Position numbers and translations under genes: made by a program
NCBI RefSeq assembly: GCF_000022025.1
Contig: NC_011881.1
Coordinates: 1 to 64,000 of the forward strand
Origin: Pseudarthrobacter chlorophenolicus A6
Lineage (GTDB): Bacteria; Actinomycetota; Actinomycetes; Actinomycetales; Micrococcaceae
Direction of reading: 5' to 3'
DNA length: 64,000 nucleotides
In this document: piece after piece, positions 6,008-52,137 of the stretch
How the letters are laid out: each line of letters begins with the position of its first letter
Numbering within the stretch: position 1 is the first letter of the stretch
Notes under the pieces: generated by a model
What the model saw: only the letters and a program-made list of their open reading frames with translations
Databases searched by the model: none
Told to the model about the DNA's origin: nothing

Positions 6008-7042
6008 ATGGGAATCAGCGCCGGGTTGCCGGCAGGGCTTGCCCCTCCGGTGAAAGTTGCGCTGGCCCGCGCCGTGGACAAGATGCCTCGCGGTGACGTA
6101 GCACGAGGCGCACTGCTGTTTGAACCCAAGTGGGATGGGTACAGGTGTGTTGCAGTCAGGGATGACCGTGGGGCCACGCTGTGGTCCCGGCAAGGGAAGG
6201 AACTGTCTGGGTACTTCCCTGAACTCTGCGCCGCGATCGTTTCGGCCGTTCCACCGGGATGTGTGATCGACGGCGAAGCCGTGATCTGGAGCCAGGGAAG
6301 GCTGAACTTCGACGCCCTGCAGCAGCGCCTGGGCGCAGGACCAAAAATCCTGCCGGGGCTGGTCACGGCAGCGCCCGCCAACTATGTAGCTTTCGACGTC
6401 TTGGCCGTGGCCGGGCATGACGCAAGGAACCTGCCTCTGAGCGACCGCCGGGCGCTCCTGGAAGAACTAGCCACGGGCTGGGAACCGCCGCTGTCCCTCT
6501 CCCCCACCACCACGGACCGCAGCGTTGCCGAGCAGTGGCTCGAAGAGCTGCCGCATACCGGGATCGAAGGGTTGGTCATTAAGGGGACCAACCAGCCGTA
6601 CACGCCGGGTGTCCGTTCCTGGTTGAAGCTCAAGCACAGGGAAACCCTGGACATTATCTGCGGCGCAGTGATCGGGCCGATTACCCAACCCTCCGAGGTC
6701 GTCGCCGGCCTGATCCTGGACGGCGAGCTGCGAATCGTCGGACGCTCCACACCACTGAAGATGAGGGAAAGCCGGGAACTGGCACGGTGGCTGCAGCCCC
6801 CAATGGGTGCGCACCCCTGGCCGGCCATTGTGAAAGGAAGGGCCCTGGATAGGTTCAACCGAGACAAGGAACCCGTGGCGCTGACGCTTGTAGAGCCCGT
6901 TGTTATTGAGGTCTCCGCCGACACCTCATGGTCCGGGAAGTCCTTCCGGCACCCCTTGCGGATACTAAGGGCGAGGCCCGAGCTATCCCCTGCCGACGTC
7001 ATTTCGCCAAAACAGCTGCGTTCTGCCGTTGAGGGCCCGTGA
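6008..7042 (+). CDS. ATP-dependent DNA ligase
   Basis: A 344-residue ligase with the adenylation motif KWDGYR at residues 41-46 (Lys41 forms the AMP adduct), IDGEAVIW, an EGLVIKG motif and a C-terminal OB-fold region. It has the size of a minimal LigC or LigD ligase domain, without polymerase or nuclease domains. It sits 25 bases after the DUF6504-like gene and probably seals nicks left by repair. Its placement suggests damage-coupled expression. The LigC versus LigD subgroup cannot be fixed by eye. Confidence 0.9.
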   Translation: MGISAGLPAGLAPPVKVALARAVDKMPRGDVARGALLFEPKWDGYRCVAVRDDRGATLWSRQGKELSGYFPELCAAIVSAVPPGCVIDGEAVIWSQGRLNFDALQQRLGAGPKILPGLVTAAPANYVAFDVLAVAGHDARNLPLSDRRALLEELATGWEPPLSLSPTTTDRSVAEQWLEELPHTGIEGLVIKGTNQPYTPGVRSWLKLKHRETLDIICGAVIGPITQPSEVVAGLILDGELRIVGRSTPLKMRESRELARWLQPPMGAHPWPAIVKGRALDRFNRDKEPVALTLVEPVVIEVSADTSWSGKSFRHPLRILRARPELSPADVISPKQLRSAVEGP

Positions 7043-7071
7043 GGGTTTGTTTTCCTGCTGCCTTCGGTCTC

Positions 7072-7120
7072 GAAGCCTTGCCGGGCGGTCGTGCGACTGA
7101 GCCCCCCGGCAAGGGACTTC
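7072..7120 (+). terminator. Terminator of the umuDC-ligase operon
   Basis: CCTTGCCGGG (7076-7085) pairs with 7105-7114, and an outer GAAG/CTTC pairing extends the stem. It starts 30 bases after the ligase stop codon. The remainder of 7121-7314 shows no gene. Confidence 0.65.
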
Positions 7121-7314
7121 AGTTTACCCGCAGGCTTAGCAGTTGCAGTCCGTAAGGATTCCCCACTCAGGTAAAGATGGGCTTTCCACGGCACTCGCTT
7201 GGGTTCTTCCCGTTCCGAAGCCCAAAGGTCGAGGCCCTGCCATTCCTTACCATGGCAACTGATGTGCCGTGGTGATGGTAAGTATGAACCAAGCACTACT
7301 GATGATGGGGAACG

Positions 7315-38367: not shown

Positions 38368-38557
38368 CGCCGAACTCTGCCAGCTGACCGGGCCCTTTCA
38401 AGTTCACCTGGCAGAGGTGGGGAACCCAATCAGTGACGGCCACAGGGCCGTCTTGGGGTGAAGCCCCTTGAACACATCGCCGCCGCCTCCGCGGCGCCAG
38501 TGGACAGGGGCCGGGTTATTGTTCCTGACCCGAATCCGACAGCTAACCCCGCAGGCG
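38368..38557 (+). promoter_or_regulatory. c-di-AMP (ydaO/yuaA) riboswitch
   Basis: The leader shows the ydaO landmarks in order: a closing stem CGCC/GGCG, GGGGAACCCAA near 38419, TTGGGGTGAA near 38452, and the 3' signature CCCGAATCCGACAGCTAACC (38529-38548). In actinobacteria this riboswitch typically precedes cell-wall hydrolase genes, as here. c-di-AMP binding usually lowers expression. Confidence 0.88.
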
Positions 38558-38575
38558 CCGGCAGAAGGACATCTC

Positions 38576-39412
38576 TTGAGTATCGACTCCCCTCCAAGGC
38601 ACTTCCCTGCGCCCGTTCCCAATCAATCCTCCGCTCCAGACAAGCCTCTTCACGGGCGTCGGCGGGCCCAAGTGCGCCCCAGTGCCACCCGCTCTCACCG
38701 GGGGCGAAACGCCGGTCTGGCCGTGCTCGCCTCCGGTGTGGCACTGACAGCATCCCTGGCTTCGGCGCACGCTGCTGTCCCCGGCGCGCCTGCCTCCGTC
38801 CCCGAGAGCGTGGCAGGGGAAACGTCCGTGTCCGCTGTTGTCATGCCCGTATCTGCTGCCGCTGACGCGCGACTTGATTTCGACCGAACCGAGGTGACCA
38901 GCAGCCCTGCTCCAGTAGCGCCGCCTGCGGCGGCTGCGGGTAATCGGCCGGCGATACCTGAACCGCGGCAAACCAAGCCTGCGCCGGCAGTCCGGGAAGT
39001 GGAGCAGCCGGCATCGCGGACGGGCAAGCTCAGCTCGCCGGTCGCAAACCCTGTGACCAATTCGCCTTTCGGCTACAGAACCAACCCCTTGAGCGGAGCG
39101 GCCGGAGAACTGCACACTGGGCTGGATTTCGCCGCTGGATGCGGTACCCCGGTCTTCAGCGCAGGCAAGGGGACGGTCACTGAAGCTGGATTCAGCGCCT
39201 ACGGCGGCGGCAACCGCATCGTTATCGACCACGGGAACGGGCTAAAGACCACCTACAACCACCTGGAAACGATAGGCGTCCAGCTGAATCAGAGCGTCGA
39301 AACTGGCGTCCGGATTGGTATCGCCGGCACAACCGGAAACTCCACCGGGTGCCACCTCCACTTCGAAGTTCTCGTCAACGGCCAGACCGTTGATCCCTCA
39401 GGCTGGTTGTAA
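38576..39412 (+). CDS. M23 family peptidoglycan endopeptidase
   Basis: About 278 residues when started at the TTG at 38576, which follows AGAAGGA and is the first in-frame start after the riboswitch; the upstream open frame runs through the RNA and is not real. It has an export signal (about residues 45-65), an Ala/Pro-rich linker and a C-terminal LytM/M23 domain with HTGLDFAAGCG and CHLHFEV supplying zinc ligands. It would cut peptide cross-bridges of the wall. It may be a riboswitch-controlled hydrolase carried with the island. Confidence 0.88.
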   Translation: MSIDSPPRHFPAPVPNQSSAPDKPLHGRRRAQVRPSATRSHRGRNAGLAVLASGVALTASLASAHAAVPGAPASVPESVAGETSVSAVVMPVSAAADARLDFDRTEVTSSPAPVAPPAAAAGNRPAIPEPRQTKPAPAVREVEQPASRTGKLSSPVANPVTNSPFGYRTNPLSGAAGELHTGLDFAAGCGTPVFSAGKGTVTEAGFSAYGGGNRIVIDHGNGLKTTYNHLETIGVQLNQSVETGVRIGIAGTTGNSTGCHLHFEVLVNGQTVDPSGWL

Positions 39413-44530: not shown

Positions 44531-44624
44531 GTGCAGGCGGGTACGGACATCAAAATGTCCATACCCGTCTGCACAACTCGCGTACTTTCAGGGCAGCGTG
44601 TGCAGACGACTTCGGAAAATGACA
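44531..44624 (+). other. Resolvase-type recombination site (res) before the second resolvase
   Basis: A 20-bp imperfect inverted repeat (44531-44550 with 44555-44574, two mismatches) around CAAA is followed by a single half-site at 44599-44624. The latter matches, in inverted orientation, the solitary site at 18459-18483. Arrangement and half-site ends (GTGCAG/CTGCAC) are typical of Tn3-family res regions. Confidence 0.65.
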
Positions 44625-45202
44625 GTTATGCCCGAGTGAGCTTGGCCGATCAGGACACTGCCCTGCAGATCCAAGACTTAAGGGCCGTAGGATGCGAACG
44701 CATCTACCAGGACCATGGAGTTAGCGGTACCCGAACAAGCCGTCCAGAACTGGACAAGATGCTCGACCGCCTTAGCCGTGGGGACGAAGTTGTGGTGTGG
44801 AAGCTGGACCGCCTCGGACGCAGCACGCGCCATCTTCTGGAGCTGCTCGATGGCTTCAAGGATCGGGGCATTAAGTTTCGATCGCTGCGTGACGGCATCG
44901 TCATGGACCCGGATACGGAGTTCGGCGGTGCCATGGCCCACGCCATGGTCACCATCATCTCCGCCTTCGCTCAGCTGGAACGTGACCAGCTCTCCGAGCG
45001 GACGAAGGCTGGGATGGCGGTGGCTGCCGAGAATGGTCGTAAGGCAGGACGCCGCCAGGTAACCGCCAGCCACGACAAAGTTAGGCGCGCGCGGGAGCTG
45101 AAAGGTCAAGGCCTCCGGCCTGCCGACATCGGAAAGGTCATCGGAGCCAGCCGGGCCACCGTGTACCGGTACCTCACATTGACCGAAGACGACCCCTTAT
45201 AG
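44555..45202 (+). CDS. Serine resolvase (TnpR-like) with abnormal 5' end
   Basis: The product retains the resolvase catalytic segment (YARVSLADQDTALQIQDL, with the nucleophilic Ser), DHGVSGTRTSRP, VWKLDRLGRS and a C-terminal HTH (PADIGKVIGASRATVYRYL). The usual MxxGYARVS start is missing: an ATGACAGTT sits at the right place but in another frame, as if a few bases were lost. The only in-frame starts lie within the res site (ATG at 44555 or GTG at 44531). It may be inactive or translated from an odd start. Confidence 0.65.
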   Translation: MSIPVCTTRVLSGQRVQTTSENDSYARVSLADQDTALQIQDLRAVGCERIYQDHGVSGTRTSRPELDKMLDRLSRGDEVVVWKLDRLGRSTRHLLELLDGFKDRGIKFRSLRDGIVMDPDTEFGGAMAHAMVTIISAFAQLERDQLSERTKAGMAVAAENGRKAGRRQVTASHDKVRRARELKGQGLRPADIGKVIGASRATVYRYLTLTEDDPL

Positions 45203-45454
45203 GGGCTGTTGTGCAGCTGGCGGGACCTTCACTCCCCAAAACTCGATAAAGGTTGGATCAAGAATTCATCAAGGGCGCTGCTCTAGGAGGACGTCCAAGG
45301 GGGTGAAAACGGACCGATCTGAGCATCCCAGGATCGAAAATGCTCCTATTAGGGGCTATTTGCCCGCCTAAGGCTCTATAACCCCCGCGCGGTACACGGC
45401 ACGCGCGTAGGGGGGTAAGGCCCGCAAAATGACACACAGGGGTTTTTGGCATGG
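45203..45454. other. Intergenic stretch with GC-rich hairpin
   Basis: No gene is seen. A strong inverted repeat (ACCCCCGCGCG near 45379 and CGCGCGTAGGGGGGT near 45403) may terminate transcription from the resolvase side. TTATAGGGGCT and ATTAGGGGCT recur at about 45197 and 45348. Confidence 0.4.
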
Positions 45455-45460
45455 TAGAAT
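45455..45460 (+). promoter_or_regulatory. Extended -10 promoter element upstream of the hairpin RNA
   Basis: TGGTAGAAT carries an extended -10 (TGN then TAGAAT). A poor -35-like TGACAC lies about 19 bases upstream. Transcription would begin near 45467, just before the first hairpin. Confidence 0.5.
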
Positions 45461-45478
45461 GGAACTACAGCGTTGTGA

Positions 45479-45564
45479 TTTCCGTTTAACGACGGAAAAC
45501 CCCGCCGCAGCTTTGTTAGCGCAAAGCTGAAAAGCCCTGTTAGCGCAGGGCCTCAATGGCGGGG
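45479..45564 (+). ncRNA. Structured RNA with three hairpins sharing a TTARCG hexaloop
   Basis: Hairpin 1: stem 45479-45485/45492-45498, loop TTAACG. Hairpin 2: stem 45508-45515/45522-45529, loop TTAGCG. Hairpin 3: stem 45534-45539/45546-45551, loop TTAGCG. Hairpins 2 and 3 are enclosed by a 7-bp closing stem (45500-45506 with 45558-45564), giving a three-way junction. All stems pair perfectly. It lies between an extended -10 promoter and the gene at 45702, so it is either a 5' leader element or a separate small RNA. I do not recognise the class. Confidence 0.7.
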
Positions 45565-45701
45565 TTGTATGTATTCCATTTTCCAGCGGAATGCATCCAT
45601 CGTAGCGCGGGCGAGTCGGCCTGTCACTTTGTGTGACATACGACACGCCGCCCCGAGGTACCACAAGGTGCCTTGGGTCCTACGTATGGAAGAGGTGCGC
45701 T

Positions 45702-46598
45702 TTGCGTATCACCGAGCACTACAACATCACCGGCCCCGTGCCCTTCGTCGACGTTCAGATCGAACGTGACAACCTTCTTTTCACCCACCCCACCGCGATC
45801 CGCAATGATCTGAAATCCGGCCTTGCTGCAAGCGCAACAGCCCGCCTGGGAAGTTACACAGCGGAGGTACTTCGGTGCCGCGCAAGTCCTAACGCGGCTG
45901 ACCAGGCGAAGGGCTTGCGCCTGGTCAAGTCAGGTCTGAACGAGCCGAACGAGACCCGCCTGGGCTACACGCGCTACGGAAGTCAAGGACACGGCTGGGG
46001 CCCGGGCCTTGGCTCTTATCTCTGGAATTCGCTGCGTAACCCCCTCTGCCGGGACGGCCTTCTGACCGGCCTTGACCAGCTTCCCGTGTTCATCCCCCGC
46101 GTGGGCCAGGATCTGATTTCAGATATGACCACGCGGCTCGTGTTCCCCGAACTCATCGACTACACGCTGCAGATGGCGGTGCAGTACCCGGCCATGACCC
46201 GGGACCTTCGTAAGGCGTCGTTCACCGTGTGGGACCCAACCAATCGCGACTGGGTCACCATCCAGGACGTGCTGCCTTTCGTCGGCGGACGGCAGCTGCT
46301 GCTGGTTCCGAAGGGCTGGGTTTCCAACAAGCTCCTGCTGGCGCCGAGGCCCTACTACAACCGATTCGCTACCACTTCCGTTCAGGAAGAACGCATTCGG
46401 TACATCAACGGCAAAGCTGACGTGCCCCTGAAACGGGACCTCCACAAGGAATTCCCTGGCGTCCGGGAGCTGAACGTCAGCCAGACACTCAAAGCCGCTG
46501 ACAAGGGCACCAACCTCATCGAGCTCTACACAGATTTCGTCGACGACGGCTATGAGCCGATGGATGATTTCGAACTTCTTCGAAAAACGGCCGGATAG
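45702..46598 (+). CDS. Uncharacterised protein downstream of the hairpin RNA
   Basis: About 298 residues when started at the TTG at 45702 (after GAGG); earlier in-frame codons overlap the RNA leader. Features are FVDVQIERDNLLFTHPTAIR near the N-terminus, NEPNETRLGYTRYGSQGHGWGPGL in the middle (short pieces: EPNETRLGY, GHGWGPGLG), DLISDMTTRLVFPELIDYT and LLLVPKGWVSNKLLL. I recall similar uncharacterised proteins beside restriction or defence genes, but no catalytic motif is evident. It is convergent with the large methylase-helicase gene and shares a bidirectional terminator with it. Confidence 0.7.
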   Translation: MRITEHYNITGPVPFVDVQIERDNLLFTHPTAIRNDLKSGLAASATARLGSYTAEVLRCRASPNAADQAKGLRLVKSGLNEPNETRLGYTRYGSQGHGWGPGLGSYLWNSLRNPLCRDGLLTGLDQLPVFIPRVGQDLISDMTTRLVFPELIDYTLQMAVQYPAMTRDLRKASFTVWDPTNRDWVTIQDVLPFVGGRQLLLVPKGWVSNKLLLAPRPYYNRFATTSVQEERIRYINGKADVPLKRDLHKEFPGVRELNVSQTLKAADKGTNLIELYTDFVDDGYEPMDDFELLRKTAG

Positions 46599-46600
46599 CT

Positions 46601-46639
46601 AAGTCAGGGCCGGCACCCGTTGGTTGCCGGCCCTGACTT
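46601..46639. terminator. Bidirectional terminator between convergent genes
   Basis: AAGTCAGGGCCGGCA (46601-46615) pairs perfectly with 46625-46639 around a 9-base loop, immediately after the stop codons of both convergent genes. Confidence 0.8.
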
Positions 46640-46653
46640 GGCGCACTTCGGGG

Positions 46654-49600
46654 TTAGCGCCCGTAGCCCGAGTCGTTCTGCCGGCGATGGTCTACTGGCC
46701 GCTGCCGGGTCATCGCCGTGGCGGTCCCGGTAGCGGCCACAGGTGCAGACTGTTGTGGGAAGGACGCATTCATCAGGCGTTGCATCCTCTCCAGCCGAGG
46801 GTCGATTTCCGCAGGCGGCTCAGGCTGTGCTTGTTCCTCCGGTTTTGCCGCGTCCGCCATGAGCTGGTCGATGCGAGCTGAGTTGGCCTGTGCAGCTTTG
46901 AGCGCAGCGGCGTGCTTGAACGGCTCCGCCAGTGCCTTGTCTGCCTGTTCGACCCGCGAGAGCGCTTCCTGGCGCCGTGCTTCGACGTCAGCGGCCAGCC
47001 GCGGTAGAGAGGCAACCCTGTTTTCGAGCTGCCGGATAGTGCCGATGTCAGCCGACAGCAGATTTCTGCGGGCGATTTGGGTTGTTGCCCTGGGCACTCC
47101 TTCGATGCGCACTTCCACGGTGGCGTGGTCGAGGTCCCGGGCGGGGACGAGTTTTGCACGTAGTTCGTGCCCACCAAGGGTGGCGATGGTCCCGAGTTCG
47201 TCGTATCCGTAGAGGTTCATGAGGCGGTGGCCGTGTTTGCCGGCCCATGCCCGGAGGGCTTCGGCCGCGTCGCCGCGATTGTCGACTGCCTTCCCGTCGA
47301 TGCTGGCTTTGAAGGCATCGGCGGTGGTGTCCACGGTCCGGGCTGCTGCCGCTTGGATCAGGGGCAGGTCGGCGGTCGCTGCGTCGGCGGCTGTTTGTTC
47401 GCCGCGTTTGGTGTGGGCTACGGCGACCATGTTGCGGTTGTAGGCCCGGTCGAGGCGGCTGAGGCGGGCCAGATCCTGGTCCGCGACAGCCTTTTCAAGA
47501 ACGAGCGGGTTGCCGCTGGTGATGGCTTTGGCCTGGGCGAAGTTCAAGGTGTTGTCCCCGATGTCTTCGATCTCCCGGACGTCGAGGCGGCCGCGCATGA
47601 TCTGGTTGATGAACCGGGACTTCCGTTCCAGTCCTTGCCACATGAAGGAGTCGAAGGATTCCTTGGTGACGACCTGGGAGATGCGGACCTCGGGGTTCTG
47701 GTTGCCTTGGCGCAGGATGCGGCCGTGGCGTTGTTCGACGTCGGAGGGACGCCAGGGGGCGTCCATGTCCACCAGGTGCACGGCCCGTTTTTGAATGTTC
47801 GTGCCGACACCCATTTTTGAAGTAGATCCCATCAGAACAGCGATCTGGCCGGAGCGGGCAGCGGCGAAAAGCCGGCCCTTTTCGGTGTCATTCTTGGCTT
47901 CGTGGATGAACCGGATCATGTGTTCGGGTACGCCACGGCGGCGCAGCTGGTCCTTGAGTTCGCCGTAGACGTTCCACCGGTCAGAGGGTGTGCCGAAGTC
48001 GCAGAAGACCAGTTGCAGGGCCCCGGGGACCGGGTCGGGTTCCCCGGTTTTCGGGTCGGTGTAGATGCGGTCCTTGTGTTCTTCGTAGACGCTGGCCAGC
48101 AGATCAGCGGTGGCACTGATCTTGGTGGGTCCGCGCTGGAACAGTGTGGGGTCCACAAGCCGCATGTCCAGGGCGGCTTTGCGGCCGTCCGAGGAGACTT
48201 TGAGCATGTTGTCTTCCTCGGAGTCAACGAGACGTTGCTGGATGGCGTCCACGCGCTTGCCGATGTCCTGGATGTACTCGCGCAGCTCCGGGCCGGGTTC
48301 CACGGCCAGCATGTTGGGCTGGCGCAGCCCGTCCCCGTCCCGCGGGGCAAGGTCCGGGACGGGGAGCTTGAGGTCTTCGGCTGTTTTAACGTCCGCGAAG
48401 GTGTGGAACATCTTCAGCAGCTCGGGGACGTTCTGGAACTTGGCGAACCGGCTCTTGAGTTTGAACCGGTCACCGCCGGCTACGGAGAGTTCCATTTCCT
48501 CGACAACCTGGCCAAACGTAGCAGCCCAGGTGTTGAAGTCCTGGATCCCGGTGGCCTTGAGGAGGTCCGGGCGCAGGTAGCGCTGCATGACGTACATTTC
48601 GGTGACGGAGTTGGCGATCGGCGTTGCCGTGGCCCCGGTGATGACCCGCCGGCCTTCGCGCTGGCGCAGGAACTCGGTCTTCATGTGCAGATCAGATGCT
48701 CGGTTGGAACCTTGAATGGCGGCGCCGGGGATATTGCTGGGCGTCTCCAGGTTCTTGTAGTCGTGCAGCTCGTCCACCACGAGGTAGTCAATACCGGTCT
48801 CTTCAAAGCTGATCCCCGGATCAGCAGGGGTATCGAGTTTGGCTTTCAGTCGCTCTTCCCGGCCCATGACGGCCTTTTCCAGCCTCTTGATGATGCTGGA
48901 ATTGTTCTGCCCGCCATCGCGGCTGGTGTCCTTCACTGCTTCAAGCTCTGCACGGGCCTGGGCAACTTCTGCACTCAGGTAAGAGGCCTCGGCTTCGGGA
49001 CTGAGGCTCACGCGCTGGAAAGCGGTGCGGGTCATGACCACGGCGTCCCACTCGTTGGCGGCCGCGCGGGCGACGAACTGTCGGCGCTTGTCCCCGGCGA
49101 GGTCTGCAGATGATGCGGCGAGGATCCGTGCCTGCGGGTAGATCTGGAGCCATTCGCGGGCGAACTGTTCCAGCATGTGGTTCGGGATGACGACGGCAGG
49201 TTTATTAACCATGCCCAGACGGCGCAGCTCCATCACGCCCATGACCATCTCCGCGGTCTTGCCGGCACCGACCTGGTGGAACAGGCCGACGGCGGGTTCG
49301 GAGAGCATGCGGGCCACGGCTGCCCGCTGGTGCGGCCGCGGGACCCAGTCCTTGGCCATGCCCGGGAGGGTCAGCCGATCCCCCTCGGTGCTGTAGTCGC
49401 GCAGCACGATGGAGTTGAATCGGCGGTTGTACTCGTCAATGAGGCGGGTAGCCCGTTCGGGTTCCTCCCACGCCCATTCACCGAAACGCTCCTGCAGCAG
49501 CTGGGCTTTCTCCTGGGCTGCTGCTGTCTCGGTTGGGTTCAGGACACGGCGGTTATTCTCGCCTTCGTCCGTGACGCGGACGGGCCGCTGTTCCAACACC

Positions 49601-52137
49601 TGCTTAAGGATGTCCGAGGCGGGCATCCGTTGGGTGCCCCAGTTGCTGGTGGCAGCCAGGGTGTGGCGGTTGGCTTTTACGTCCCACAGGGAGCCGGCCG
49701 CGTTGGAGACGGTGGCGTAGGGGTCGTTGAGGATTTCGCGCACGAAGTCTTGGTGGGTGACGGCGTCGATCCAGACTGCACCCAGGCGCGCTTCTACCTC
49801 GTCCATGCGTAGCGGCTGGGGCATGACCTCGGTGAGGGCCCGGACGTTGACGGCGAACCTGTCATCGGAGAGTGCTGCCGACTGGGCGACTTCGAGCTTT
49901 TCGCGGACGTTCCCGGACAGGTACTCGGCCCGGGTCTGGAAAGTCTCATCAGCGCCGGGGACCTGGTAGATGCTCTCCCCCATCGCTGCCCGTGTTTCCT
50001 CGCGGCTGATGCCCAGCAGGGACGCCGCGTAGTCCAGGTCAACCTCGCCGACGGTGTCGAGGGTGACGGTAAGGGCTTCTTCGGCGGTGTCCACGCCAAG
50101 GACCGGTCTGCGTGGTTGGACCTGGCGGCTGGAGAGCAGGGCAGCCTGGGTGGCCGTCTGGGTGGCCTCGTCGAAGTTCTCCAGCGCCTTGACCAAGGGC
50201 CCGAATGGGTCCCGGGAGACGATGGTGACTGCTCGGGGTGTGATGCGGGCCTGGATGGGCTCCTGCGTCTCTTCATCTACCCGGCCGGTGTCCCGGAGGG
50301 TGTAGCGGTTGATCGGCCCGTAGGTGTCCGTGTATCGGCTGTAGGCGTTCTTCAGGTTCTCGCGCAGCCCGTCGATTTCTGCTGTGTCGTCGCGGTTTTC
50401 GGCTTCTGCGCTGAGCAGGTTGCGTGCGGCGTCCCGCAGCCCCAGGAGGGCGCGGAGTTCGGCGGCCTGGGTCTTGGGCACGGCGAGGTCGACGTAGGAG
50501 CCGTTTTCGACAACGGTGAAGCCGTTGTCGGTGGCGCTGATGTGGCCTTCCCATTCGTGGCTTGCTGCCGGGATGTACGCGGCCCTCTGGCGTTCCTGTT
50601 CGGCTGTCCTTTCGCTCATGACCATGCCGGAGGCTTTGGCTTCCGCTACGACGCCGGCCAGTGCCGCGTTCAGGCGCGCGGGCACTGCCGAGAGATCGTC
50701 GGTGGTCAGCTGCAGGGTTTCGTCCCCGTACATGCCGTTGCCGACGTGCAGCTCGCCAAGGAGCCGTTCGGGATACTCGTCGAAGTAGGAGTTCAGGCGT
50801 GTGATCGTCCCTTCGATTTGGCGGGCGGTGACGGTTTCCCAGAGGTTGGTGGCCGGTTCCTGGCCGGGTTCCCTCCGTCGGAAGATCAGCAGGTCGGTCA
50901 TCGCGTCGGTGCCCGCTGCCTTGCGGTGGGCGCCGGTGGGCAGCCTGACGGCGCCCACAAGGTCGGCCAGCTGGTTCATCTCCCGGCGTGCTGCCGGATT
51001 GGTGGCGTCCAGGGTGAAGCTGGAAGTCAGCACGGCGACCATGCCGCCTGGGCGGGTCAGTTCGAGGCTTTTGAGGATGAAGTGGTTGTGGATCGAGTGC
51101 CCGCCGGCGTTGTGGCGGGGATCGTGCAGCGTGACGTTGGCGAAGGGTACGTTGCCGATGGCGAGGTCGAAGTGCCCGGTGGGCAGCTTGGTGTCGGCGA
51201 AGGACTCGGCGCGGACGGTGGCCTCGGGGTAGAGGGCCTGGGAGATAGCCGCGGTGGTGGGGTCCAGCTCGACCCCGGTCATCTCGGCGGTGTCCGGGGC
51301 AAAGCCGATGAAGGTTCCCACACCGGACCCCGGTTCCAGGACAGTGCCGCCGATGAACCCGAGTTCCTGAACCGTGGACCACATGGCCTGGACGTAGGCG
51401 GCGTCGGTGTAGTGGGCATTGATGGTGGTCCGTCGCGCTGCGTCGTACTGTGCCTCGGATAGGAGGCTGCGCAAATGCTGGCGGTCCCCGGCGTATTCTT
51501 CCCGGGTCTCATCGAAGATCTGGAAGACGCCTTGCGCGCCCCAACTCCCCCATCGGGCCAGCGACGCTTTCTCGGCGTCCGTGGCCTTCCGCCCCTCGCT
51601 CTGCAGCCTCTGCAGGATCTCAAGGGCCTCAAGGTTCGCTTTGATGCGGCTGCGGGCACCGGACGGGGCCAGCTCTTCCTGCGAGGACGGGCGAAACCTG
51701 TCCGGAGAAGTCTCTAGAGCTGTTCCCGAAGCCGCTGCATTTCGGCCATGAACTCCAGGTGCTCCTTGATCGTCGGATTCTCGTACTCGTCCTCCTCGTC
51801 CTCCGTCTCCGGTGGCGAGAGCAGGTCGTAGCGGACGATTTCCTCGGCCTGGTTCTTCGCGGCGTTCAGCCGACCTACCTTCTCGAGGTAGCTCTCGCCC
51901 TGCGGGTCCGGTCCGGCGATCTTGAGCAGCAGTTCGTCCACTTGCTCCTGGGCTTCCTCCCCCAGCTTCGTGAAGAACTCCTCCGGGTCCTGTATCTGGC
52001 TGTAGCGCGCCGGACTTGCTGCCTTCCAGGCTTCCTGAGCCTGCCTGCCGTACTTGTTCATCACGATCCTCCTCAGGTGCCGACCAGAGAGCGTCAAAGC
52101 TCAACTGGCCATCGATCTGCTTCTTGCGCCCCGCCAT
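46654..52137 (-). CDS. N12-class DNA methylase / SNF2-type helicase giant protein (DarB-like)
   Basis: The open frame is 1827 codons. From about residue 165 it shows a SAM-dependent methylase domain (LEPGSGVGTFIG near 267, GNVPFANV near 330) and then a helicase with VGAGKTAEM near 950, DELHDYKN near 1121, TGATATPIANS and QRHGRILRQGNQN, ending in a helical C-terminus. Such proteins are common on actinobacterial plasmids and phages and resemble phage P1 DarB, an antirestriction factor. The first ~140 codons overlap another well-supported gene in a different frame and look like a shadow, so the true start is unclear: ATG 52137, a start near 51700, or a frameshift from the small gene. Confidence 0.85.
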   Translation of the reverse strand: MAGRKKQIDGQLSFDALWSAPEEDRDEQVRQAGSGSLEGSKSGALQPDTGPGGVLHEAGGGSPGASGRTAAQDRRTGPAGRELPREGRSAERREEPGRGNRPLRPALATGDGGRGGRVRESDDQGAPGVHGRNAAASGTALETSPDRFRPSSQEELAPSGARSRIKANLEALEILQRLQSEGRKATDAEKASLARWGSWGAQGVFQIFDETREEYAGDRQHLRSLLSEAQYDAARRTTINAHYTDAAYVQAMWSTVQELGFIGGTVLEPGSGVGTFIGFAPDTAEMTGVELDPTTAAISQALYPEATVRAESFADTKLPTGHFDLAIGNVPFANVTLHDPRHNAGGHSIHNHFILKSLELTRPGGMVAVLTSSFTLDATNPAARREMNQLADLVGAVRLPTGAHRKAAGTDAMTDLLIFRRREPGQEPATNLWETVTARQIEGTITRLNSYFDEYPERLLGELHVGNGMYGDETLQLTTDDLSAVPARLNAALAGVVAEAKASGMVMSERTAEQERQRAAYIPAASHEWEGHISATDNGFTVVENGSYVDLAVPKTQAAELRALLGLRDAARNLLSAEAENRDDTAEIDGLRENLKNAYSRYTDTYGPINRYTLRDTGRVDEETQEPIQARITPRAVTIVSRDPFGPLVKALENFDEATQTATQAALLSSRQVQPRRPVLGVDTAEEALTVTLDTVGEVDLDYAASLLGISREETRAAMGESIYQVPGADETFQTRAEYLSGNVREKLEVAQSAALSDDRFAVNVRALTEVMPQPLRMDEVEARLGAVWIDAVTHQDFVREILNDPYATVSNAAGSLWDVKANRHTLAATSNWGTQRMPASDILKQVLEQRPVRVTDEGENNRRVLNPTETAAAQEKAQLLQERFGEWAWEEPERATRLIDEYNRRFNSIVLRDYSTEGDRLTLPGMAKDWVPRPHQRAAVARMLSEPAVGLFHQVGAGKTAEMVMGVMELRRLGMVNKPAVVIPNHMLEQFAREWLQIYPQARILAASSADLAGDKRRQFVARAAANEWDAVVMTRTAFQRVSLSPEAEASYLSAEVAQARAELEAVKDTSRDGGQNNSSIIKRLEKAVMGREERLKAKLDTPADPGISFEETGIDYLVVDELHDYKNLETPSNIPGAAIQGSNRASDLHMKTEFLRQREGRRVITGATATPIANSVTEMYVMQRYLRPDLLKATGIQDFNTWAATFGQVVEEMELSVAGGDRFKLKSRFAKFQNVPELLKMFHTFADVKTAEDLKLPVPDLAPRDGDGLRQPNMLAVEPGPELREYIQDIGKRVDAIQQRLVDSEEDNMLKVSSDGRKAALDMRLVDPTLFQRGPTKISATADLLASVYEEHKDRIYTDPKTGEPDPVPGALQLVFCDFGTPSDRWNVYGELKDQLRRRGVPEHMIRFIHEAKNDTEKGRLFAAARSGQIAVLMGSTSKMGVGTNIQKRAVHLVDMDAPWRPSDVEQRHGRILRQGNQNPEVRISQVVTKESFDSFMWQGLERKSRFINQIMRGRLDVREIEDIGDNTLNFAQAKAITSGNPLVLEKAVADQDLARLSRLDRAYNRNMVAVAHTKRGEQTAADAATADLPLIQAAAARTVDTTADAFKASIDGKAVDNRGDAAEALRAWAGKHGHRLMNLYGYDELGTIATLGGHELRAKLVPARDLDHATVEVRIEGVPRATTQIARRNLLSADIGTIRQLENRVASLPRLAADVEARRQEALSRVEQADKALAEPFKHAAALKAAQANSARIDQLMADAAKPEEQAQPEPPAEIDPRLERMQRLMNASFPQQSAPVAATGTATAMTRQRPVDHRRQNDSGYGR
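51714..52061 (-). CDS. Small acidic protein upstream of the giant methylase-helicase
   Basis: A 115-residue protein (MNKYGRQAQEAWKAASPARY...), largely helical, with an acidic C-terminal part (PPETEDEEDEYE). A GAGGAGG ribosome-binding site lies 6 bases before the ATG, and codon third positions are strongly G/C, so this frame is the real one here even though the giant ORF is also open. I recall similar proteins encoded just upstream of N12-class methylase genes in related plasmids. Role unknown; probably an accessory subunit. Confidence 0.7.
   Translation of the reverse strand: MNKYGRQAQEAWKAASPARYSQIQDPEEFFTKLGEEAQEQVDELLLKIAGPDPQGESYLEKVGRLNAAKNQAEEIVRYDLLSPPETEDEEDEYENPTIKEHLEFMAEMQRLREQL

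Follow-up and report, generated by a model that had tools for sequence, protein, structure and literature searches.

Translational riboswitches and autogenous leaders of the ribosomal-protein type combine a covarying junction with a closing stem that competes with a hairpin at the ribosome site. For the AbiF-RCd22 pair of Clostridioides difficile, a promoter is reported to be followed by a structured RNA with two motif copies and then by the gene, with the start site 168 nt upstream, and RCd22 is reported to neutralise the AbiF toxin both in cis and in trans (PMC12373285). Type III systems are defined by a repeat array, a terminator and a ToxN toxin (PMC8860590). The locus analysed here shares features with each of these systems, and its leader adds a new RNA element to the broad and familiar class of structured leader RNAs, here attached to a protein family that is uncharacterised and associated with defence.

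Organization of the locus

The window, that is, the whole 64-kb stretch of DNA considered in this study, is part of a 158,475-base contig in a genome of 4.98 Mb and three contigs. A serine resolvase gene (44531-45202, + strand; Pfam Resolvase) is followed by about 250 gene-free bases, after which an extended -10 promoter, TGG TAGAAT, can be recognised by eye at 45452..45460 on the + strand, with transcription expected to start near 45467. This promoter had been claimed in a preliminary description of the locus; it is visible to the eye, but a consensus promoter scan of 45200-46800 listed nothing on the + strand, this site included. TGnTAnnnT sites were also seen by eye before the leaders of relatives L007, L077, L078, L079, L083, L093 and L002. 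In the window, a densely folded stretch spans 45479-45676 (+ strand), a likely ribosome-binding site, as judged from its sequence, stands at 45688..45695 (+ strand, GGAAGAGG), and the TTG-started gene, which encodes a short-form PF28123 / PDC-M36A-like protein of 298 aa, extends over 45702..46598 (+ strand, stop codon included). The gap between the closing stem of the hexaloop hairpins and this gene measures 136 nt, in agreement with the "about 140 bases" given previously.

Several further elements surround the leader and its gene. Upstream of the promoter site, an imperfect inverted repeat, CCCCCGCGCG...CGCGCGTAGGGGGG, occupies 45382-45420; a part of it, CGCGCGGTAC, was also noticed by eye before the L007 promoter, and the repeat is possibly an operator or a resolvase site. 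On the - strand, a very large gene (46654-52137, 1827 aa) with helicase C-terminal similarity ends 56 bases past the stop codon of the short-form gene. The only Rfam match in the window at the gathering threshold is a c-di-AMP riboswitch outside the leader (RF00379, 38358-38572, 63.7 bits against a cutoff of 38), which overlaps the 5' part of the + strand reading frame 38468-39412, whose product we take to end like an M23 peptidase.

Hexaloop hairpins in the window leader

Three perfect hexaloop hairpins, two of them inside a closing stem, had been reported from this leader, and all were confirmed on the + strand at 45479-45551. They are H1 (45479..45498, 7 bp, loop TTAACG), H2 (45508..45529, 8 bp, loop TTAGCG) and H3 (45534..45551, 6 bp, loop TTAGCG), with H2 and H3 enclosed in a hexaloop domain (45499..45565) by an 8-bp closing stem that pairs 45499-45506 with 45558-45565. 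Downstream, on the same strand, hairpin P3 (45569..45596, pairing 45569-45577 with 45588-45596) precedes a core strand, CATCGTAG (45598..45605), which by eye resembles the AGCGUARCGGAG junction of the relatives and could pair with CTACGTATG (45680-45688), immediately upstream of the ribosome site; hairpin P4 (45610..45649) and the 10-bp hairpin P5 (45653..45676) complete the series.

Perfect hexaloop hairpins of at least 6 bp occur 20 times in the 64-kb window, and the leader holds three of them within 73 bases. The string TGTTAGCGCA, consisting of the loop and its closing bases, has two copies in the whole 4.98-Mb genome, both in this leader, and relative to dinucleotide shuffles the 200 nt upstream of the start codon have a folding z-score of -5.3. 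Terminator-like sites number 3 in the region versus 1.5 in shuffles; those in the leader, at 45549-45566 and 45607-45624, both lie inside other predicted helices. Tandem Repeats Finder returned no arrays for 45200-45750 at a minimum score of 30.

Two resemblances to other RNAs were considered and set aside. The Thermales-rpoB RNA (RF03109) aligned to 45472-45548 with 28.8 bits (E 1.9e-4 for 601 bases) and to L007 with 18.3 bits (E 0.23), far below its curated cutoff of 77.3 bits; the shared string CCCUGUUAGC is located in the unpaired tail of the RF03109 model and within hairpin H3 in the window. Paired TGTTAGCGCA hairpins were also encountered in 43 viral contigs (L138, L152 and others), mostly from one enterobacterial prophage family, and were judged unrelated to the window element. 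The second hairpin of these viral pairs is often followed by T runs and is terminator-like, the TGTTAGCGCA strand in L152 is antisense to reading frame 6882-7208, and Rfam gave no match at the site in the 10 viral contigs scanned.

The close relative L007, with 57% protein identity, provides a helix-by-helix comparison. All 8 closing-stem pairs are identical to those of the window, both TTAGCG loops are kept, and most of H2, H3 and P3 is retained; P3 keeps 8 of its 9 pairs, with one both-sides change and one one-side change. The counterpart of H1 has a loop of 9 nt and no hexaloop, P4 is partly rebuilt and P5 is lost. The CATCGTAG/CTACGTATG pairing reads CATCTT with AAGATG in L007, where the alignment contains one G-C to U-A double change and 2 of the 8 pairs are broken, and two sequences cannot prove this putative pairing of the core strand beside the ribosome site. 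The window P3 would correspond to the P3 of the relatives by order only.

A covarying leader RNA family in relatives

A recurrent layout was found before short-form genes, in which a strong hairpin is followed by a closing stem, P2, and then by the ribosome site, with P2 enclosing P3, the conserved AGCGUARCGGAG junction and P4. The seed fold was set by hand on four Rhodococcus/Prescottella leaders; a 6-pair fold given by RNAalifold for the first MAFFT alignment of 16 leaders was wrong, missed the conserved fold and was discarded. At E <0.01 the four-sequence model identified 11 further distinct loci, each immediately preceding a homologue of the gene (L012 and L082 being one locus). It also gave two weaker rows, L106, which lies in place (E 0.59), and L011, which lies out of place (E 0.14). 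A second model, R2, was built from 15 leaders, with L094, L111 and L112 outside its training set. R2 matched 17 of the 38 short-form sources (16 distinct loci) plus one chance site, and left the window leader and 20 further sources of the 38 unmatched; none of the 8 long-form sources was matched. In a later set L111 and L112 were matched, and among 38 other, mostly long-form sources the single site matched, in L017, is at chance level (E 0.15) and lies apart from the gene.

Across 18 leaders, the RNA comprises 28 pairs and ends at the start codon. Paired cells amount to 93.1%, 22 of the 28 pairs show double changes, and none of 500 shuffles reaches any of five measures, although these pairing and covariation counts lean towards structure because the alignment was fitted to it; slid versions of the fold pair at 36-47%. 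A gene-blind R2 search of 394 genomes of the class returned 10 matches at E up to 0.1, of which the two strong ones (E 4.5e-25 and 4.4e-21) both sit immediately upstream of a homologue of the gene, and the eight weak ones (E 7e-4 to 0.085) have no homologue in the stretch examined. Among 297 genomes from the family of one strong match, the same match was recovered again, together with five weak ones (E 5.6e-4 to 6.4e-3) that have no homologue beside them. Strong occurrences of the leader RNA thus go with this gene. The suggestion that an RNA element is paired with this gene is borne out, since the covarying leader ends at the start codon and the gene-blind search recovers the gene.

Searching by covariance upstream of homologues, a course that the preliminary description had proposed, yielded a covarying fold in 18 relatives but, with R2, no match in the window. 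The model was equally without a match in L007 and in the pZXY21-like group (L004, L077-L079, L081), and its one match in the whole genome to which the window belongs is a chance match outside the window leader (E 0.73). Because the window leader has no R2 match, we infer its membership in the family from its position, its hexaloops, its fold strength and one close relative, L007. For the pZXY21-like group, RNAalifold proposed 32 pairs, 10 with a double change, and this fold was not taken as proof because its covariation term was unfavourable (+1.24). Rfam gave nothing for the leaders of the relatives (16 loci by E-value, 8 at gathering), a similarity search with the leader DNA in plasmids produced short chance matches only, and a literature search, with subscription journals mostly outside its reach, found no description of this leader RNA.

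Folding of short-form leaders and the ribosome-site hairpin

Fold strength over 200 nt was evaluated separately for short and long forms of the gene. The 16 model-matching leaders had a mean z of -4.8 (14 below -3) and the 21 other short-form leaders a mean of -3.45 (13 below -3), and the 54 regions ahead of long forms averaged -0.66, with 3 of them below -3; the 37 short-form leaders are the distinct set without L011, whose promoter, by eye, is near the start codon. These predictions indicate that short-form leaders are strongly folded, whereas most regions before long forms are not. Four short-form leaders (L008, L108, L003 and L015) fail a z of -1.65. A short-form gene on a staphylococcal plasmid (L002, 2550-2953), with 26% identity and a TATAAT-like site seen by eye, has a folded leader (z -5.0) in which the actinobacterial model has no match.

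The last 44 nt of the leader, predicted to make a hairpin that covers the ribosome site in the model-matching set, showed the same separation, with a mean z of -2.12 in the 16 model-matching leaders (13/16 below -1.65) and -0.11 before long forms (2/54 below -1.65). In a duplex test of the ribosome site, the mean z was -1.26 for the 16 model-matching leaders, -0.03 for 13 others and 0.04 for 45 long forms, and the predicted openness of the site was about equal, at 0.39 for short forms (n = 39) versus 0.42 for long forms (n = 54). The window itself shows no excess local structure at its ribosome site, with a z of 0.3 for the last 44 nt and of 0.54 in the duplex test. In 14 of 15 leaders of the relatives, the 5' arm of the ribosome-site hairpin draws on the P2 3' arm for at least one base, and in 12 of 15 for two or more; it draws on the P4 3' arm in 11 of 15. 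In 13 of 15 leaders the fold with this hairpin is more stable than the conserved one, a comparison biased by the weak pairs that the enforced consensus fold includes. In L006, L092, L012 and L084 the overlap amounts to 0-2 pairs, little enough for the folds to be almost compatible. Competition between the closing stem of a conserved fold and a ribosome-site hairpin is the arrangement seen in translational switches.

Constraint on the hexaloops

The hexaloop survey took in the hairpins of 40 distinct short-form leaders, up to 260 nt from the start codon. Among strong hairpins, 6-nt loops were found in 17/26 in the leaders versus 14/86 elsewhere in the same loci (Fisher 3.8e-6), and the end bases were C...A (12) or U...G (4) in 16/17 leader hexaloops versus 4/14 elsewhere (2.1e-4), p-values that are too small because the leaders are related by descent (five of them have CGCCAA). 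Lowering the threshold gave 21/49 versus 52/499 for 6-nt loops and 17/21 versus 14/52 for the end-base rule. The window hairpins fall below the high threshold and are outside the 17 strong hexaloops, and their loops (TTAACG, and TTAGCG twice) obey the same U...G rule. The idea that selection acts on the loop and not on the stem, drawn originally from the window, holds family-wide, though the loop letters vary, with 11 distinct sequences among the 17. Since U-G and C-A wobble pairs have similar shapes, the hexaloop may be a capped tetraloop. Loop inversion is another candidate cause, because reverse complementation turns C...A into U...G and several loops are related in this way (CGCCAA/TTGGCG, TTGCAG/CTGCAA and TTGCCG/CGGCAA).

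The short-form protein and its relatives

The window protein matches PADLOC model PDC-M36A weakly (E 4.6e-6, 23.7 bits), and a long form matches it strongly. PF28123.1 appears in the precomputed annotation of 71/71 homologues listed; its model is absent from the Pfam copy searched directly, in which the window protein matched no family at E up to 1. NCBIfam gave no match, and PADLOC gave PDC-M36A only. Long forms are about 480 aa in length and carry a C-terminal PD-(D/E)xK-like domain, with a loose D..ExK pattern in 67/71 long rows; the 298-aa window protein is without this domain. AlphaFold2 produced a confident model of it, with which a fold search of PDB and BFVD found no relative. Neighbours matching defence models were present at 4 of 8 long-form loci, one neighbour having been scanned per locus. 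The link to defence made in the preliminary description is accordingly supported in part only, through the weak PDC-M36A match, its strong counterpart in the long form and these neighbours.

The family is frequent on plasmids. Phage records contained no homologue of the window protein and narrow viral scans gave none; a viral profile scan returned 14 loci, none of them matched by R2, whose frames measure about 390 aa or more in 13 cases and 314 aa in the remaining one (L131). In L102 (2414-2830), L101, L109, L005 and L006 the leader is immediately preceded by a gene of about 133-139 aa; the L005 copy is annotated "putative plasmid addiction protein", and the L102 copy has no Pfam or PADLOC match. 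In L104, L105, L107 and L110 a 51-aa gene stands directly before the leader instead.

Discussion

We consider it somewhat probable that the gene at 45702-46598 has a dedicated cis-acting translational switch, to which the hairpins belong. The leader of the message for this protein contains the hexaloop hairpins and is predicted to be structured. In the leaders of the relatives two predicted folds would compete, a covariation-supported fold that frees the ribosome site and an alternative in which a hairpin covers it, the latter probably being the default off state. If the RNA folds as predicted in cells, a partner, which may be the encoded protein itself or a cue of infection or stress, could flip the switch by binding the hexaloops or the conserved junction. 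The window leader would work like those of its relatives, and the encoded protein would presumably serve defence. Several results speak against a switch: R2 leaves the window leader and 20 further short-form sources unmatched, the window has no excess of structure at its ribosome site, the openness of that site is about equal in short and long forms, and the overlap of the two folds is slight in four leaders. Among the three roles initially proposed, an autoregulatory or cis-regulatory leader fits best; a guide RNA was not shown, nor was a type III toxin-antitoxin-like RNA, given that there is no tandem repeat array and no known toxin family or fold.

The main rival to the cis switch is an AbiF-like RNA antitoxin. 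A discrete leader RNA may be the protein's partner, bound through its hexaloops, and either hold back a toxic effector, in the manner of RCd22/AbiF, or form an active RNA-protein complex with it. The layout is that of AbiF-RCd22, the window has two near-identical hexaloop hairpins, the loop constraint is family-wide, strong gene-blind matches of the RNA adjoin the gene, and the short forms are without the nuclease-like domain of the long form. However, the structure in the relatives reaches the ribosome site and overlaps the hairpin there, which is what a cis element should do, the terminator-like sites of the window leader fall within other predicted helices, and the protein matches no Abi_2 or ToxN-like family, so that we regard this partnership as possible but rather improbable. 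If the leader were autoregulated, with the encoded protein binding it, the cis switch and the RNA-partner reading would merge.

That the hexaloop hairpin acts as a terminator or attenuator, which ends the upstream gene or cuts the leader early and whose loop has no partner, appears unlikely. It would suit the loci in which the hairpin closely follows the stop codon of the upstream gene (L006, L101, L102 and L109, among others) or is trailed, by eye, by a short T run (L080 and L006), but in the window, L007 and L093 a promoter seen by eye upstream of the hairpin places it inside the leader, strong hairpins elsewhere in the loci favour neither hexaloops (14/86) nor the end bases (4/14), and the covariation of P2-P4 would go unexplained. 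We find it very unlikely that the repeats work at the DNA level, as a resolvase site, a plasmid origin or protein-binding inverted repeats. The serine resolvase gene ending at 45202, the frequency of the family on plasmids and the mutual reverse complementarity of several loops, which template-switching loop inversion could cause, speak for such an element; against it, position and orientation are fixed relative to the start codon, pairing follows RNA rules with G-U included, the RNA requires the neighbouring gene, and no resolvase is annotated within 3-4 kb in other relatives (such as L102, L103 and L109). Chance hairpins in a GC-rich leader are hardly credible: short inverted repeats are common and the window has 20 hexaloop hairpins, but three of these within 73 bases, a fold z of -5.3, loops kept in L007, and covariation and hexaloops across the family argue otherwise.

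In a broader and frankly speculative view, which we judge doubtful as a whole, the locus may represent a new RNA-controlled defence system, in which a family of defence proteins lost its nuclease domain and acquired a leader RNA of its own. The short protein would bind the wobble-ended hexaloops, and one RNA would sense infection, meter the protein and join the active complex, with the system moving from host to host on plasmids. The leader ties a structured RNA that Rfam does not cover to a protein family that is widespread, has a confidently predicted model and no fold match, and includes some long forms adjoining defence genes. If the leader is a switch, its ligand would show to what the protein responds; as an RNA partner, it would stand with ToxIN and AbiF as one more type of RNA-protein defence. 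The division into long and short forms also makes it testable whether RNA control arose at the loss or the gain of the nuclease domain.

Comparison with known systems

Like type III toxin-antitoxin systems such as ToxIN, the locus has a non-coding RNA directly before a protein gene; unlike them, the window has no tandem repeat array, and its protein showed no match to a ToxN/CptN/TenpN-type toxin in Pfam or NCBIfam and no such fold match in PDB. With AbiF-RCd22 it shares a promoter, a structured RNA with repeated motifs and a seemingly uncharacterised effector gene, the RNA being kept next to the gene. It differs in that no T-run terminator like that of RCd22 was seen, and in that the fold of the relatives runs into the ribosome site and overlaps the hairpin there; the abiF RNA motif (RF03085) has no match in the window, and no Abi_2 domain was found in the protein (Pfam, E up to 1). 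The window protein shares the N-terminal domain of the PADLOC PDC-M36A / PF28123 proteins, and departs from their long forms in having no C-terminal nuclease-like domain and in being preceded by a structured leader. As in translational riboswitches and autogenous leaders, the junction covaries in the relatives and the closing stem would compete with the ribosome-site hairpin; unlike the known examples, this leader belongs to no Rfam family at cutoff and precedes a plasmid-borne, defence-like gene.
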